From Mesotoga prima MesG1.Ag.4.2 (GTDB lineage Bacteria > Thermotogota > Thermotogae > Petrotogales > Kosmotogaceae): a stretch of 64,000 bases of DNA. Of the stretch, positions 35,266 through 48,323 are shown piece after piece; within the stretch, counting starts at the first letter, position 1; each line of letters opens with the position of its first letter. Both the position numbers and the translations under genes were made by a program. Location of the stretch: assembly GCF_000147715.2 (NCBI RefSeq), contig NC_017934.1:1240001-1304000 (forward strand). Direction: 5' to 3'. The notes under the pieces are model-generated. The model was not told where the DNA came from and made no database searches. It worked only from the letters and a program-made list of their open reading frames with translations.

Positions 35266-35847
35266 TTACTCTCCGGAGTTGCTAAACAGGCCCCTCCAGA
35301 TTATTTCTCTTATGCTTTCTAGCCCGTCAGGGTCTTCCGTTATACTGAAACCATTCAGTATCAGGTCTGCTGCGCTATCTGGATCGACGTCCTTCGAAAT
35401 TTCCTGAGCAGCCTTTGCATCATTTATGGCCGACGACAACTTCTCTTTCAAGGCTTCGTATCTGTCTCTCACTCTCTTCCAGGACTCGTTGTCTTCCCTG
35501 CTAAGGTTCGCACGTTCCTGATCCATGATTTTCTTGATCTCATTTTTGCTCGTTATGAAATCTATGTACGATCTCAGAATCCTCTTGAGCTTTGAGACAT
35601 AAACGTTCTCGTCGCTTGTTTCGGAAAAGACATGATCTTCGAGCTCGTCAATAGAGTATTGCCAAACTTCGTAAAAAAGATCTTCTTTGCTCGGAAAGTA
35701 GTAGTAAATAAGTGCCTTTTTCACTCCAGCCATCTGCGCAATCTCAGACATGCTGACGCCGTCGTGACCTCTCTCCGCAAAGGCCTTCCGGGCGGCTCTT
35801 ATAATCCTCTCTCTAGAAGATAACTTTGCTCGCACCGGATCCACCAT
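35266..35847 (-). CDS. TetR/AcrR-family transcriptional repressor
   Basis: A 193-residue protein with a TetR N-terminal HTH: SRERIIRAARKAFAERGHDGVSMSEIAQMAGVKKALIYYYFPSKEDLFYEVW. The C-terminal part is all-helical and ligand-specific. Its gene starts four bases after the stop of the radical SAM gene, so the two are one operon. A TTACCGGTCGGTAA palindrome lies in front of the radical SAM gene (37324-37337) and is the likely operator. The inducer is unknown. Confidence 0.9.
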   Translation of the reverse strand: MVDPVRAKLSSRERIIRAARKAFAERGHDGVSMSEIAQMAGVKKALIYYYFPSKEDLFYEVWQYSIDELEDHVFSETSDENVYVSKLKRILRSYIDFITSKNEIKKIMDQERANLSREDNESWKRVRDRYEALKEKLSSAINDAKAAQEISKDVDPDSAADLILNGFSITEDPDGLESIREIIWRGLFSNSGE

Positions 35848-35851
35848 CCCC

Positions 35852-37297
35852 TCAAGGTTTTTTGTCTATAGCAAGCTTTTCTTCGTTGTTGGCGTACTTT
35901 CTCATTCTAACATCAAAATCGTACACGCCCCTGTGCGCGGGATGGGTTTCGGCAAAACCTTCCTCGTAGTATAGCTTGTCTGCGTACTTCTTCCAGCCTT
36001 CGGCGAGTTCGTCAAGCTGACCGGCAAGCTCCGTAACAACGTTCTCGCTTCCATCATGCTGAGGAATGGCGTGGAACTTGTTGACCATTGCCCTTAGGAC
36101 CTTCGGGTTGTCAATGATTGGACAGGGTCTGAAAAGATTGTTGCTGTAGGGCACCATTCTCTTGTACGCGGTAAAGAACGGTGACTTGATAACTTCGAGA
36201 AGACTCTTCTCCCTGATGCTATCAACGGCAAACTGCTGGAATACACATGGTTCTACGTAACCCTTTGCATTGACGTGAAGGTACTTCGCGCCGGCGGCCA
36301 GACAACCATTCGTAAGGAATCCATGATTCCAGAAGTCAGCAACGAATGCGAAATCACCACCGAGCCTCTCTTGCTCGGTCTTGTAGAATCTCTCGTATCT
36401 CTGCTCCGGAGTAGGAACAAGATCCATGGAGGGATTCATACCAACAGGCATGAACTGGAAGACCCAGGCGTAAGAAACACCCTCGTCCTTCAGGAACTGC
36501 CAGAACTCGTCCTTCATCATTACCTCGTGGTTCAGCCTGGTCGCAGTAACAGAGGTACCGTAAATTACTCCTGCTTCACGCAGATTTGTCCAGGCCTGCC
36601 TGACCTTCTGGAAGACACCGCGGCCACGTCTCCAGTCGGTTTCGCCTTCAAAGCCTTCTACCGAGACGGCAAACGTCGCATTACCTAGTTCGGCGAGTTT
36701 CTGGGCGACTTCCTTCGTGATAAGAGTACCATTGGTGTAGACCTGGAAGTAAGAATCGTTGAACTCTTCAAAAATTTCGAGAAGATGCGGCCATACAAAA
36801 GGCTCTCCGCCGGTAATTATGAAGAAGTAAATGCCCAGCTCGTTTGACTGTCTGATAATTGAACTGACCTCTTCCTTCGAAAGCTGATACTTTCTTCCGT
36901 AGAGACCGGCATAGCAACCCACGCAGTTCAAATTGCAGGCGTAGGTCGGGCTTATAACAACCAGCTTGGGAATGACGACCTCATGCTCAAGCATCTTTTC
37001 CTGACGAATCTTCTCTCCGAGAGCAAATTCGTTAACAACCAAGTTCGTCATAGCCTTTTCTACTGCCTTAGGGCTAGATCTCTTGAAAACATTTTGCCAG
37101 GACACGATCATTGGATGCTCTTCCTTGGCCATCTGCGTCAGTTTCTTTAGACCGCTCTTTGTCGGTTCTTTCGTCAAAGCAGCAACAGTGCCAAATAACC
37201 TTGCAATATTCTCAGTAGAAGAATTCCTGACGACTGAACCAACATACTTCCCTGCCTGTCTTAGCATGGAAGTTTTCATACTTTCTACAATACCCAT
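35852..37297 (-). CDS. Radical SAM protein with SPASM-like C-terminus
   Basis: A 481-residue radical SAM enzyme. The cluster motif is VVISPTYACNLNCVGCYAGLYG (CX3CX2C). GGEPFVWPHLLEI is the GGE SAM contact, and TDWRRGRGVFQKVRQ and GTSVTATRLN fit the barrel. The C-terminal half holds GCLAAGAKYLHVNAKGYVEPCVFQQFA and FRPCPIIDNP, a SPASM/twitch-like second cluster site. I start at the ATG with GGGGGTG upstream rather than at the longer frame. Its reaction is not evident; similar proteins modify peptides or act in cofactor synthesis. It is the first gene of a two-gene operon with the TetR repressor. Confidence 0.86.
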   Translation of the reverse strand: MGIVESMKTSMLRQAGKYVGSVVRNSSTENIARLFGTVAALTKEPTKSGLKKLTQMAKEEHPMIVSWQNVFKRSSPKAVEKAMTNLVVNEFALGEKIRQEKMLEHEVVIPKLVVISPTYACNLNCVGCYAGLYGRKYQLSKEEVSSIIRQSNELGIYFFIITGGEPFVWPHLLEIFEEFNDSYFQVYTNGTLITKEVAQKLAELGNATFAVSVEGFEGETDWRRGRGVFQKVRQAWTNLREAGVIYGTSVTATRLNHEVMMKDEFWQFLKDEGVSYAWVFQFMPVGMNPSMDLVPTPEQRYERFYKTEQERLGGDFAFVADFWNHGFLTNGCLAAGAKYLHVNAKGYVEPCVFQQFAVDSIREKSLLEVIKSPFFTAYKRMVPYSNNLFRPCPIIDNPKVLRAMVNKFHAIPQHDGSENVVTELAGQLDELAEGWKKYADKLYYEEGFAETHPAHRGVYDFDVRMRKYANNEEKLAIDKKP

Positions 37298-37323
37298 GAA
37301 TAACACCCCCAATAGTTTTTTAC

Positions 37324-37337
37324 TTACCGGTCGGTAA
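37324..37337. promoter_or_regulatory. Predicted TetR-type operator
   Basis: TTACCGGTCGGTAA is a 14-base near-perfect palindrome (arms TTACCG and CGGTAA) 27 bases upstream of the radical SAM start codon. This matches the size and look of AcrR/TetR operators, and the operon's second gene is a TetR-family repressor, so autoregulation is likely. The remaining 280 bases up to the rsgA leader contain no gene. Confidence 0.75.
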
Positions 37338-37615
37338 AATACTAGTCCTTCAATACTACATCTATATGTCATTTACAACAAGATTATGCAACATTGGGCT
37401 CGAGCATGCAGCTATTCTCCTCGCCGAAAGGATGATGGATAGCAATTCTGCGTTCTATAAAAGAATTCATTTAGATTGAGATATAATCGCGACTTCTTAC
37501 CCCCAAAAGACTTTTACTGAGGTGAGGCTTTCAATATCAAAAAACATCAAGACAATTTGAATCAGCCCTGGAAATACCGCCGTAAATCATCATAATTAAA
37601 CCCATTCAAAAGGGC

Positions 37616-37644
37616 GTCACAATAGGCACATCATGTTATATAAT
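37616..37644 (+). promoter_or_regulatory. Promoter for the rsgA leader
   Basis: A perfect TATAAT at 37639-37644 has GTCACA (four of six TTGACA bases) 17 bases upstream at 37616-37621. Initiation near 37651 would give a leader of about 20 bases before the 24-codon leader ORF. Confidence 0.6.
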
Positions 37645-37672
37645 TGATGCTTCCATAAAGGAGGTGGTGTAT

Positions 37673-37747
37673 ATGGCAGATAGCTTTGATTGTTTCCTTA
37701 ACCCCATGGGTTCTTACACCGCGCTTCTTTTGGAATCTAATTGCTGA
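37673..37747 (+). CDS. 24-residue leader peptide of the rsgA attenuator
   Basis: A short ORF with an excellent ribosome site (AAAGGAGGTGGTGTAT before ATG). The peptide begins MADSFDCFLNPMGSY and ends LLLESNC. It stops at TGA 37745-37747, 24 bases before an intrinsic terminator. Codons 11-17 lie within the segment that can pair with the terminator's left arm and loop, so ribosome position would decide which RNA structure forms. I know of no described peptide with this sequence. Confidence 0.75.
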   Translation: MADSFDCFLNPMGSYTALLLESNC

Positions 37748-37800
37748 AACGCGATTTCTTCCGATTATTCAACCACGGCGGTAAGAACCCGTGGTTTTTT
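37704..37800 (+). terminator. Attenuator: terminator with competing antiterminator upstream of rsgA
   Basis: Terminator: AACCACGG (37771-37778) pairs with CCGTGGTT (37789-37796), ten-base loop, then TTTTTTCTTTC. Competing helix: CCATGGGTTCTTA (37704-37716) plus CCGC (37719-37722) inside the leader ORF pairs with TAAGAACCCGTGG (37782-37794) plus GCGG (37778-37781), 17 pairs with one G-U and a two-base bulge. The two structures exclude each other. Confidence 0.8.
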
Positions 37801-37837
37801 CTTTCTTTAAACAGTCTCGAATAATTGGAGGTTAATC

Positions 37838-38731
37838 ATGATTGGTGAGGTAACTAATGTTCAAAAAGGCATGATAGAAGTAAGATCAGAGTCAGGCGAA
37901 TTCTTCCGCTGTCTTCTCAGAGGAAAGCTTCTTCAAAAGGAAAGAACAGAGAAGAACGTTGTTGCCGTTGGCGACAGGGTGCTTTTCGAAAGGCTTCATA
38001 AGGACCAGGGAATAATTACCGAGGTTCTTCCCCGTGACAAATGTCTTGTCAGGAAAGGGGCAGGCAAAAAAGGTAGACATCTCCATCAGGTTATCGCCGC
38101 AAACGTTGATCAGGTTCTTATTGTCGTGGCGATAAAGGATCCTCCTTACCACAAGAACTTGATAGAAAGGTACATTACTGCAGCGAGAGGGTCGGATCTT
38201 GACGTGACGATTGTCTTTAACAAAGCCGACCTGGGCCTATCTGAAGAAACGAAGGCGGATATCCAGAAATATCGTGACCTAGGGTACAGAGTCTTTCTCA
38301 CCAGTACCGTCTCAAATTTAGGGATAGAAGAGGTCAAGTCGGCTCTTCAGGGGAGGTCTTCGGTTTTGGCCGGAAGTTCCGGCGTCGGAAAATCCTCTCT
38401 AGTAAACGCAATTTGCAATTCAAACGTTAGAACGGGCGAAGTAAGCGATTCCACACACAAGGGAAAGCATACAACCACTTCCTCTCAGGTGCATCTCCTC
38501 CCTGATGAAGGGAGAATCATAGATGTTCCCGGAATGAGAGAGTTTGCAATAAGTGGAACGGAAGGACTTGACGAAGCATTTGAGGATATAGTGGAACTTT
38601 CCGCAAAGTGCAGGTTCAGAAACTGCACCCACACCGTCGAGCCGGGATGCGCGGTTCGGCAGGCCGTGGCCAACGGAATTCTCGACGAGAGAAGACTGCA
38701 AAACTACTTGAGAATGAAGACAGAAGTTTGA
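37838..38731 (+). CDS. rsgA: Small ribosomal subunit biogenesis GTPase RsgA (YjeQ)
   Basis: A 297-residue circularly permuted GTPase: OB-fold N-terminus (GEVTNVQKGMIEVRSESGEFFRCLLRGKL), then G4 VFNKADL, G1 LAGSSGVGKSSLVNAI, G3 IDVPGMREF, and a zinc knuckle at the end (CRFRNCTHTVEPGCAV). RsgA tests maturation of the 30S decoding centre. GGAGG precedes the ATG. Upstream lies a leader ORF and attenuator (37673-37800), which is unusual for this gene and would tie its expression to translation status. Confidence 0.95.
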   Translation: MIGEVTNVQKGMIEVRSESGEFFRCLLRGKLLQKERTEKNVVAVGDRVLFERLHKDQGIITEVLPRDKCLVRKGAGKKGRHLHQVIAANVDQVLIVVAIKDPPYHKNLIERYITAARGSDLDVTIVFNKADLGLSEETKADIQKYRDLGYRVFLTSTVSNLGIEEVKSALQGRSSVLAGSSGVGKSSLVNAICNSNVRTGEVSDSTHKGKHTTTSSQVHLLPDEGRIIDVPGMREFAISGTEGLDEAFEDIVELSAKCRFRNCTHTVEPGCAVRQAVANGILDERRLQNYLRMKTEV

Positions 38732-38760: not shown

Positions 38761-39773
38761 GGTTCTTTGTAATATCGTAAACAGCGGTCAGCTTGTCATC
38801 TCGGCAGAGGCTTTAGGAAGTTACTCGCTTTGCTCTCCCAAAAGAAGCATCCTTGAGCCCTCACAATGTCATTCGTAGAGCCTGCCTTGATGAGCCTGCC
38901 CTGAACCCTGCCCCAATGAGCCTGCCCTGAAATGCTCTTGTTCAGGGCTCCTGTTTGGGGTCTTGCACGGGACCTCGCGCCAAAGAAGCGCTTCACGCTT
39001 AAGAACGAAAAACCGCTCAACGCTGTGAAGACAACGTTGTCAGTCAACGGTCCACCGTCCTCCGCATATTTTTTAGGCTGGCGTAGCGGAACTGGCCTTT
39101 GCGACGGAAAGACTGGCCACCGAAGGTGACTGGCCTGCGTCAGCAGCCTGGCTGATTTGTGCCCAAAATCCATCCTCCTTGTCATCCCGTAGTGCTTCTA
39201 TACGGGATCTAGGTTTTCGTCATATGTATGACTGAGCGAAAATAGGGACTGACAATTCTCCTCTTGTCTGTCCTGTTTTTCGCGTAAAAGGCAGAGATTC
39301 CAACCAGGACCTTTTTCGGGCGAACGGCCGTTCGCCCCTACAAGAGAACTGCACAATCATCTTAGATTGTCATCCCGTAGAGCCTGCCCTGAAAAGATTC
39401 TGTTCATGGGATCTGCACGGGATCTAGCATCCAAGACCCGCTCAAAGCTGGAAAGAGCCATTACTAACCTCTTTGGGGCCTCTTTTTAGGGTCATCCCGA
39501 ACTTGTTTCGGGATCGTTTGATCTTTCAGCGGCCAGAGGGCGCGAAAAATGAGACCATAGGACCCGGTCAGCCCCTTTTTCTGCTCTCGTTTTCTCGTGA
39601 GCAATGCGAATTCTCGGATGCGCTCTTTCTCGGCTTTTTAAAGGCTTCAGCGTTCAGCGGGTCTTGGATTTTAAGCGTGCGGCGGTTCTTAGGAGCAGGA
39701 TGTTGACACAAGTTCAGATACGAAATATGGCGTTTTCGGAATGACATGGTGTTTTCATACCGCGTGGCGTTTA
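38761..39773. repeat. Composite repeat block, mostly in reverse orientation
   Basis: Contents include GCAGGCTCATC units; reverse-oriented TTCGTTCTTAAGCG and CAACGGTCCACCGTCCTCCG repeats (near 39040); reverse GCCAGT-linked hairpins (GGCCACCGAAGGTGACTGGCC, CTGCGTCAGCAG; 39080-39150); a reverse ATCCCGT element (39182-39212); GCGAAAATAGGGACTGACAATTC and the full GGGCGAAC palindrome repeat in reverse (39233-39360); a GTCATCCCGAACTTGTTTCGGGATC inverted repeat (39491-39515); and AGCGAAGC/CTCGTGAGC units. No gene is seen. Confidence 0.8.
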
Positions 39774-39869: not shown

Positions 39870-40220
39870 TGGTGGAGGCGGCGAGAGTCGAACTCGCGTC
39901 CGAAACCAAATTCCCTGCAGGCTCTCCGAGCGCATCCTGTGATCGTCGTCAACAGTCAAGACTTCACAGGCAGAGTCCGACTGTCCAAGCTCCTAAGTGT
40001 CCCCGGGAATACGGAGCATATTCACGGGCAAGGTCTGATTTTCTGACGCCCTTCATAGCCCACCAGACCAAAAAGCTATTCGGACGGCTACTTATTAATT
40101 ATTAAGCAGCAAGTGCAAATTCGTTATTGGCATTTCTGCTTTTCCGGTTTTTTAACGCGGCTCCGGGACCTCGGCTCGCTCCTACAAGTTCATTGACCCC
40201 GTCGAAACCGTTTCGCCCCC
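39870..40220 (-). ncRNA. ssrA: Transfer-messenger RNA (tmRNA)
   Basis: A 351-base tmRNA. The 5' end GGGGGCGAAACGGTTTCGACG and the 3' end GACGCGAGTTCGACTCTCGC followed by CGCCTCCACCA are canonical, and GGGGGCG pairs with CGCCTCC as the acceptor stem. The tag reading frame ends GCC AAT AAC GAA TTT GCA CTT GCT GCT TAA TAA (complement of 40099-40131), giving a degradation tag ending ANNEFALAA. CCA is encoded. SmpB is not in the window. Confidence 0.97.
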
Positions 40221-48035: not shown

Positions 48036-48110
48036 ACGGTGAGTAGCCCAGGGGGATTTCAGCCCCAGCTCTCTCAGAACCGGACTTGAAGCTCTCGATT
48101 CATCCGGCTC
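48036..48110 (-). mobile_element. Group II intron 3' end remnant (domains V and VI)
   Basis: On the minus strand a 34-base domain V (48077-48110) starts GAGCCGGATGAATC, has a GAGA loop, and ends CAAGTCCGGTTC; GAGCCGGA pairs with TCCGGTTC in the canonical way, including the catalytic AGC. It is followed by a domain VI-like stem (AGCTGGGGCTGAAATCCCCC) and CTACTCACC. No reverse transcriptase frame lies upstream (48111-48300), so this is a truncated relic. The spurious plus-strand frame over it is not a gene. A GCGGGCAA...TTTGCCCGC hairpin sits at 48171-48200. Confidence 0.75.
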
Positions 48111-48323
48111 CCATTATCCAGCCGAATAGAATATCTTCATTGTCCAGTGTACAAATAGATGAGGCTCCCTGCGGGCAAGAGCTCCTAGCCATTTGCCCGC
48201 TTTTGTGTGACCGCTCCTTTTGTAGTGTAAGATCGATTTGGGAGATCTCTCGTAGGTCAGTTGTTGTTTAACAGCAAATGTTGGCATCGCACTGGATAAT
48301 CAAAGATTTTTATGGGGGGTTTA

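Follow-up and report, generated by a model that had tools for sequence, protein, structure and literature searches.

A predicted ribosome-mediated attenuator in front of an accessory rsgA gene in Mesotoga prima, with similar leaders in other phyla

The leader and the surroundings of rsgA2

In Mesotoga prima, the gene rsgA2 (37838-38731, plus strand; positions are those of the window, that is, the whole 64-kb stretch of DNA analysed) encodes an accessory RsgA of 297 aa, a circularly permuted GTPase with a zinc-binding motif (TIGR00157, PF03193), hereafter RsgA2. The leader that precedes it (37616-37838) begins with a promoter, GTCACA-17-TATAAT (37616-37644, plus strand), which shows 10/12 consensus matches and places the expected transcription start near 37651. 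In relatives, a TATAAT-like box is visible about 20 nt 5' of the SD of the leader ORF (uORF). As the original prediction had it, this uORF (37673-37747, plus strand; ATG 37673, TGA 37747) has 24 codons and a strong ribosome site, the near-perfect SD AAAGGAGGTGGTG at 37658-37670. It encodes the peptide MADSFDCFLNPMGSYTALLLESNC. Also in agreement with the prediction, an intrinsic terminator (37771-37800, plus strand) lies between the uORF and rsgA2. It consists of an 8-bp stem, a loop of about 10 nt and a T6 tract, the arms AACCACGG..CCGTGGTT spanning 37771-37796 ahead of the T6, and is seen in the sequence, in the folds and in relatives, where it is kept. An automatic terminator scan did not report it because the scan permits loops of 3-8 nt.

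Upstream of the leader, a TetR-type gene (35266-35847) adjoins a radical SAM/SPASM gene (35852-37372, minus strand). Near the likely start of the latter, an inverted repeat, TTACCGGTCGGTAA (37324-37337), is found once in the 64-kb stretch, for a chance expectation of 0; it is probably the TetR operator. Downstream, the gap between rsgA2 and the tmRNA gene (39870-40220, minus strand) is filled with degenerate direct and inverted repeats (38881-39700). Farther away, a match to a group II intron domain is present on the minus strand (48038-48112).

Accessory and housekeeping rsgA genes

Work on RsgA has treated it as a 30S maturation factor that is made constitutively. The rationale offered originally for an attenuator at this place, namely that RsgA monitors 30S assembly, holds for another gene of the same genome but not for the one behind the leader, whose accessory status had not been recognised. 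The genome indeed holds two rsgA genes. The second one, at 692363, is 34% identical to the leader-controlled gene and is located directly 3' of an upstream gene, without such a leader; we infer that it is the housekeeping copy. RsgA2 itself scores 208 bits against the TIGR00157 cut-off of 100. In a tree of 70 RsgA sequences (quick search, midpoint drawing), an accessory clade, which unites the RsgA2 type with the second, longer RsgA found in Bacillota and Cyanobacteria, is split from housekeeping RsgA with an SH-aLRT of 99. On these sequence grounds, RsgA2 is assigned to the accessory clade and not to the housekeeping one. Moreover, a housekeeping copy is also present in 16/16 tested Bacillota and Cyanobacteria genomes having the long type.

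Close orthologues of RsgA2 are confined to the same family, in which all five genera possess them. They are absent from two near-complete Mesotoga-type genomes (G007 and G008), and the genes flanking rsgA2 vary between genera. The leader DNA occurs once per genome and, in the genus and the family, before rsgA2 alone. A multi-copy or mobile leader was rejected on account of this single occurrence. A leader on the housekeeping rsgA was rejected as well, these copies directly following an upstream gene in Kosmotogaceae and in most Bacillota, with no uORF called.

An SD, a short ORF and a hairpin are found before rsgA2 in every orthologue with complete upstream sequence. In 7/7 Mesotoga-type genomes, the start, the stop and the 24-codon length of the uORF are kept without indels; in three Kosmotoga-type genomes, the uORF has 28 codons. 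Lack of conservation of the ORF or of the competing helices in related genomes had been named as a ground for dismissing the attenuator, and both turn out to be conserved. Between genera, the helix sequences are too diverged for one alignment, and one locus, L013, has a different leader layout. Two other loci are irregular at the gene itself. In L004, about 29 bp carrying the rsgA2 SD and start codon are duplicated in tandem at the rsgA2 start. In G011:C12:6078-6961 (L019, L008), rsgA2 is divided into two pieces that overlap and differ in frame, so that it looks frameshifted, with its leader intact.

Competing helices and the position of the ribosome

Three regions of the leader, all on the plus strand, account for its alternative pairings. 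Region 1 (37657-37671) comprises the uORF SD and the 5' arm of an anti-antiterminator, and pairs with 37715-37730 in the free fold. Region 2 (37704-37730) is the strand common to the 5' arm of an antiterminator (37704-37721) and the 3' arm of the anti-antiterminator (37715-37730). Region 3 (37776-37794) is the 3' arm of the antiterminator, with 17 pairs to 37704-37721, and takes in the left arm, the loop and the right arm of the terminator. The pairing of part of the ORF with the loop and right arm of the terminator over 17 bases, already proposed, can thus be located: it consists of 14 contiguous pairs (37704-37717 with 37781-37794) and three more (37719-37721 with 37776-37778). The anti-antiterminator (37657-37663 with 37724-37730 and 37664-37671 with 37715-37722), referred to below as the SD:uORF helix, was missing from the prediction; it is present in the minimum-energy fold of the leader, whose folding z is -3.5. 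Because the antiterminator shares 37715-37721 with the SD:uORF helix and also uses the right arm of the terminator, it excludes both, and the three helices seen in the sequence, the anti-antiterminator, the antiterminator and the terminator, are mutually exclusive.

In an alignment of seven Mesotoga-type genomes, where covariation is good but not deep because just two well-separated sequence clusters underlie it, the antiterminator is 97.5% paired, versus 33-47% when slid by 1-3 columns, and 89.5% of the cells of the SD:uORF helix are paired, versus 37-57% when slid. Double-sided changes are observed in the antiterminator at 37714:37784 and 37715:37783, and a UA pair is replaced by CG at 37670:37716 in the SD:uORF helix. 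The A to G change at 37716 fits both helices, since the G faces C at 37670 in the SD:uORF helix and makes a G-U pair with 37782 in the antiterminator.

The effect of a translating ribosome was modelled by masking its footprint, from -15 to +16 of the P-site, at each codon and computing the probability of the terminator. The sample consisted of 12 leaders, eleven of Kosmotogaceae type and L032; folding was at equilibrium and at 37 C, neither cotranscriptional nor kinetic, and some of the relatives are thermophiles. In 10/12 leaders, the RNA without ribosome goes to termination and a ribosome at about codons 1-5 leads to antitermination. The ribosome-free terminator probability is 0.61 in the M. 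prima leader, which is the leakiest, and 0.89-1.00 in the others. The positions that abolish the terminator are mostly codons 1-4 or 1-5 (codons 1-2 in L009 and L011), and later positions restore it. When the uORF interiors were shuffled, an equally large switch was obtained in 0-5/200 trials per leader. L012 and L032 share the layout, yet show no switch in this equilibrium model. In the model, a stalled ribosome masks the anti-antiterminator and thereby favours the antiterminator.

These calculations agree with two elements of the original proposal, that a ribosome on codons 11-17 favours the terminator and that an early-stalled one favours antitermination. The third element, that the antiterminator can also form when the ribosome is absent or has been released, is not supported: in the folds the SD:uORF helix forms instead, and the terminator wins. 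A leader-peptide attenuator before this rsgA is well supported, but its ribosome-free state is predicted to be off and not on. The corresponding explanation, in which rsgA2 would be on by default and shut off, through blocking of the antiterminator, by a uORF ribosome at codons 11-17 as a general coupling to translation, draws on the 17 pairs of the antiterminator taken alone and on the fact that these codons block it. It is very improbable in view of the conserved SD:uORF helix, which gives ribosome-free termination with P 0.61-1.00, and of Bacillales leaders of the same layout, which also terminate by default.

We favour, with a probability of about 0.8, a ribosome-mediated transcription attenuator of the accessory RsgA in which a ribosome on the early codons turns rsgA2 on. 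A 30S subunit would catch the uORF SD during transcription of the leader, before the second half of the uORF exists. Without a ribosome this SD is entirely base-paired, so that loading must win a race. If initiation and onward movement were normal, or if no ribosome loaded, transcription would end before rsgA2. If a ribosome were held at about codons 1-5, the SD arm would be masked, the antiterminator would form, RNA polymerase would read through and RsgA2 would be made. Candidate causes of such a hold are inhibitors of initiation or of the first peptide bond, or an initiation complex unable to proceed. The 30S or 70S particles concerned would in turn be the targets of RsgA2. Most cluster-A Mesotoga leaders are also on with a ribosome at codons 20-23, which leaves room for slow termination as a second signal.

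The uORF would work through the position of the ribosome and not through its peptide. Its first codons vary by lineage (MADSF, MKDNF, MTKRK, MRQLK), which makes an amino acid or an arrest peptide unlikely as the signal and points to a stall at initiation or shortly after. Although a translated uORF accompanied by a terminator and an antiterminator is also what an amino-acid or peptide-specific attenuator, either of the trp/his type or based on a drug-dependent arrest peptide, would offer, such a device is quite improbable here: MADSFDCFLNPMGSYTALLLESNC has no run of one regulatory amino acid, the peptides vary between genera while the helices persist, and the switching codons are the first five, when there is little nascent chain yet. 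Amino-acid attenuation proper was rejected for its lack of a codon run and its diverging peptides. Even less probable is that the ORF is incidental to a ligand riboswitch, or to autoregulation in which the leader is bound by RsgA or by a ribosomal protein. The existence of alternative structures speaks for it, but the conserved parts are exactly the SD, the start, the frame and the stop, and no ligand-type pocket is conserved across lineages. A known riboswitch or RNA family was rejected in the absence of any Rfam match at gathering score.

As to the inducer of the favoured attenuator, we infer early-stalling antibiotics or defective 30S subunits. The same RNA logic could serve faulty 30S or initiation complexes as its sole signal, an immature 30S binding the very strong SD, stalling and calling for RsgA. 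This reading fits the action of the RsgA family on 30S (TIGR00157), a switch set at codons 1-5, hence at the initiation stage, and the strong SDs of the leaders; we consider it rather unlikely, the absence of the accessory copy from G007 and G008 being easier to reconcile with a stress accessory than with an assembly checkpoint.

A second, translational layer of control is possible from the folding of the full leader. In its minimum-energy structure, the terminator sits inside a helix between 37758-37770 and 37819-37831 (37758-37831, plus strand), whose pairing takes in the rsgA SD. This helix is retained in 7 relatives with some pairs broken. In the ribosome-position scan of Mesotoga-type leaders it shows no clear opening, and a translational switch through the rsgA SD is not clear in them.

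Accessory rsgA leaders in other phyla and related systems

One genome scan supplied long accessory rsgA genes from other phyla, whose upstream regions were judged by fixed uORF criteria. On this basis, a strong-SD uORF stands before the accessory rsgA in 21/35 cases in Bacillota and 8/12 in Cyanobacteria. In the controls, the frequency is 6-9% for shuffled upstream DNA, 2/19 for other genes and 0/16 for housekeeping rsgA. In these two phyla taken together, the pairing of the uORF SD with the interior of its own ORF exceeds that of the rsgA SD with its coding sequence (paired Wilcoxon p = 4.8e-6). In phyla beyond Bacillota and Cyanobacteria, a uORF was found in 7/32 cases with no SD pairing signal, and the claim is for this reason not extended to them.

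The early-ribosome switch is also seen in seven Bacillota leaders of this first set. A second sample of 120 Bacillales genomes, two of which were already in the first set, yielded an accessory rsgA in 78/120 genomes and 29 readable upstream regions. A uORF of 19-29 codons is present at 28/29 of these loci, and about 22/29 switch early, a count favoured by the picking of the best-switching terminator. A recurring pairing joins CAGCCC of the uORF to GGGCTG of the terminator. Natural compensating variants occur in L068 (ACAACCC/GGGTTGT) and in L191, where the terminator has GGACTG (read from the peptide and the terminator). Among leaders without a terminator, a translational switch is clear in L076 only. 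In Cyanobacteria, only the uORF and its pairing can be considered shown, because a terminator is mostly absent and no clear translational switch is apparent.

The type of mechanism has precedents. In Bacillus subtilis, the vmlR leader, which reacts to inhibitors acting at the initiation stage, carries its uORF within an anti-antiterminator (PMC9226507). Like the rsgA2 leader, it combines a uORF in an anti-antiterminator hairpin, an antiterminator and an intrinsic terminator, and its switch is set, as predicted for rsgA2, when a ribosome is detained during initiation (PMC9226507). The vmlR leader also has a structure sequestering the SD of the main gene, to which the helix over the rsgA SD is a candidate counterpart. 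The vmlR uORF, however, is a tripeptide with its SD 5' of the hairpin, whereas that of rsgA2 has 24 codons and its SD inside the helix, and the target is an ABCF resistance factor instead of an accessory RsgA GTPase (PMC9226507). In Listeria monocytogenes, rli80-hflXr likewise has a 14-aa uORF overlapping an anti-antiterminator, followed by an antiterminator and a terminator, and the regulated gene is, again, a second copy of a ribosome-associated GTPase (PMC6310831). Its uORF contains an RLR macrolide-arrest motif (PMC6310831), which the rsgA2 uORF lacks. HflX splits 70S whereas RsgA works on 30S, and the likeness is one of layout and logic. Leaders of the trp/his type share with that of rsgA2 a leader ORF and competing helices, but place the control codon in the middle of the ORF, whereas the rsgA2 leader is on at the first codons and has no regulatory codon run.

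A second RsgA is also known in Streptomyces coelicolor, where the paralogue SCO6149 is among the antibiotic-dependent translation-factor paralogues activated by WblC (PMC7157823). SCO6149 resembles RsgA2 as a second RsgA, and is induced by antibiotic stress; it belongs to the WblC/WhiB7 regulon, and its control lies with a transcription activator instead of a leader of its own (PMC7157823). By analogy, SCO6149 would independently link a second RsgA with antibiotic stress.

As in the original prediction, no attenuator of rsgA was found described in the open-access literature searched. The type of mechanism is familiar; what appears to be new is its target, the on window at codons 1-5 with an SD that is itself part of the helix, and the distribution over several phyla. 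The arrangement across Bacillales suggests an undescribed response to jammed ribosomes. More tentatively, and at somewhat less than even odds, the accessory RsgAs of Thermotogota, Bacillota and Cyanobacteria may form a cross-phylum stress system, in which the gene's own leader senses a ribosome stuck at initiation or at the first peptide bonds, and the affected 30S is rescued, cleared or remade. If so, some cells would respond to jammed initiation by making a 30S-acting GTPase, and the hflXr/vmlR logic would extend to a biogenesis factor. Tolerance of antibiotics, or of damage at the initiation stage, would then have a layer not yet characterised, governed by an early-ribosome sensor independent of peptide sequence. 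With this, an RsgA paralogue that is widespread but apparently unstudied acquires a testable function, and the leaders would be ready-made reporters of early ribosome stalling.

Some accessory rsgA loci depart from the common pattern. In Bacillales, L169 has no uORF leader and shows a GC-rich, repeat-like sequence upstream of the accessory rsgA instead. In Cyanobacteria, the uORF peptides of L055, L057, L061, L066 and L096 share a QGAE/QGTE-like stretch, and several of these uORFs contain a GCGCAGAG/CTCTGTGCGC repeat, together hinting at a different, possibly translational, control. Finally, in L050, on the Lysinibacillus plasmid pMGMM7, the accessory rsgA is located directly 5' of the fosfomycin-resistance gene fosM.
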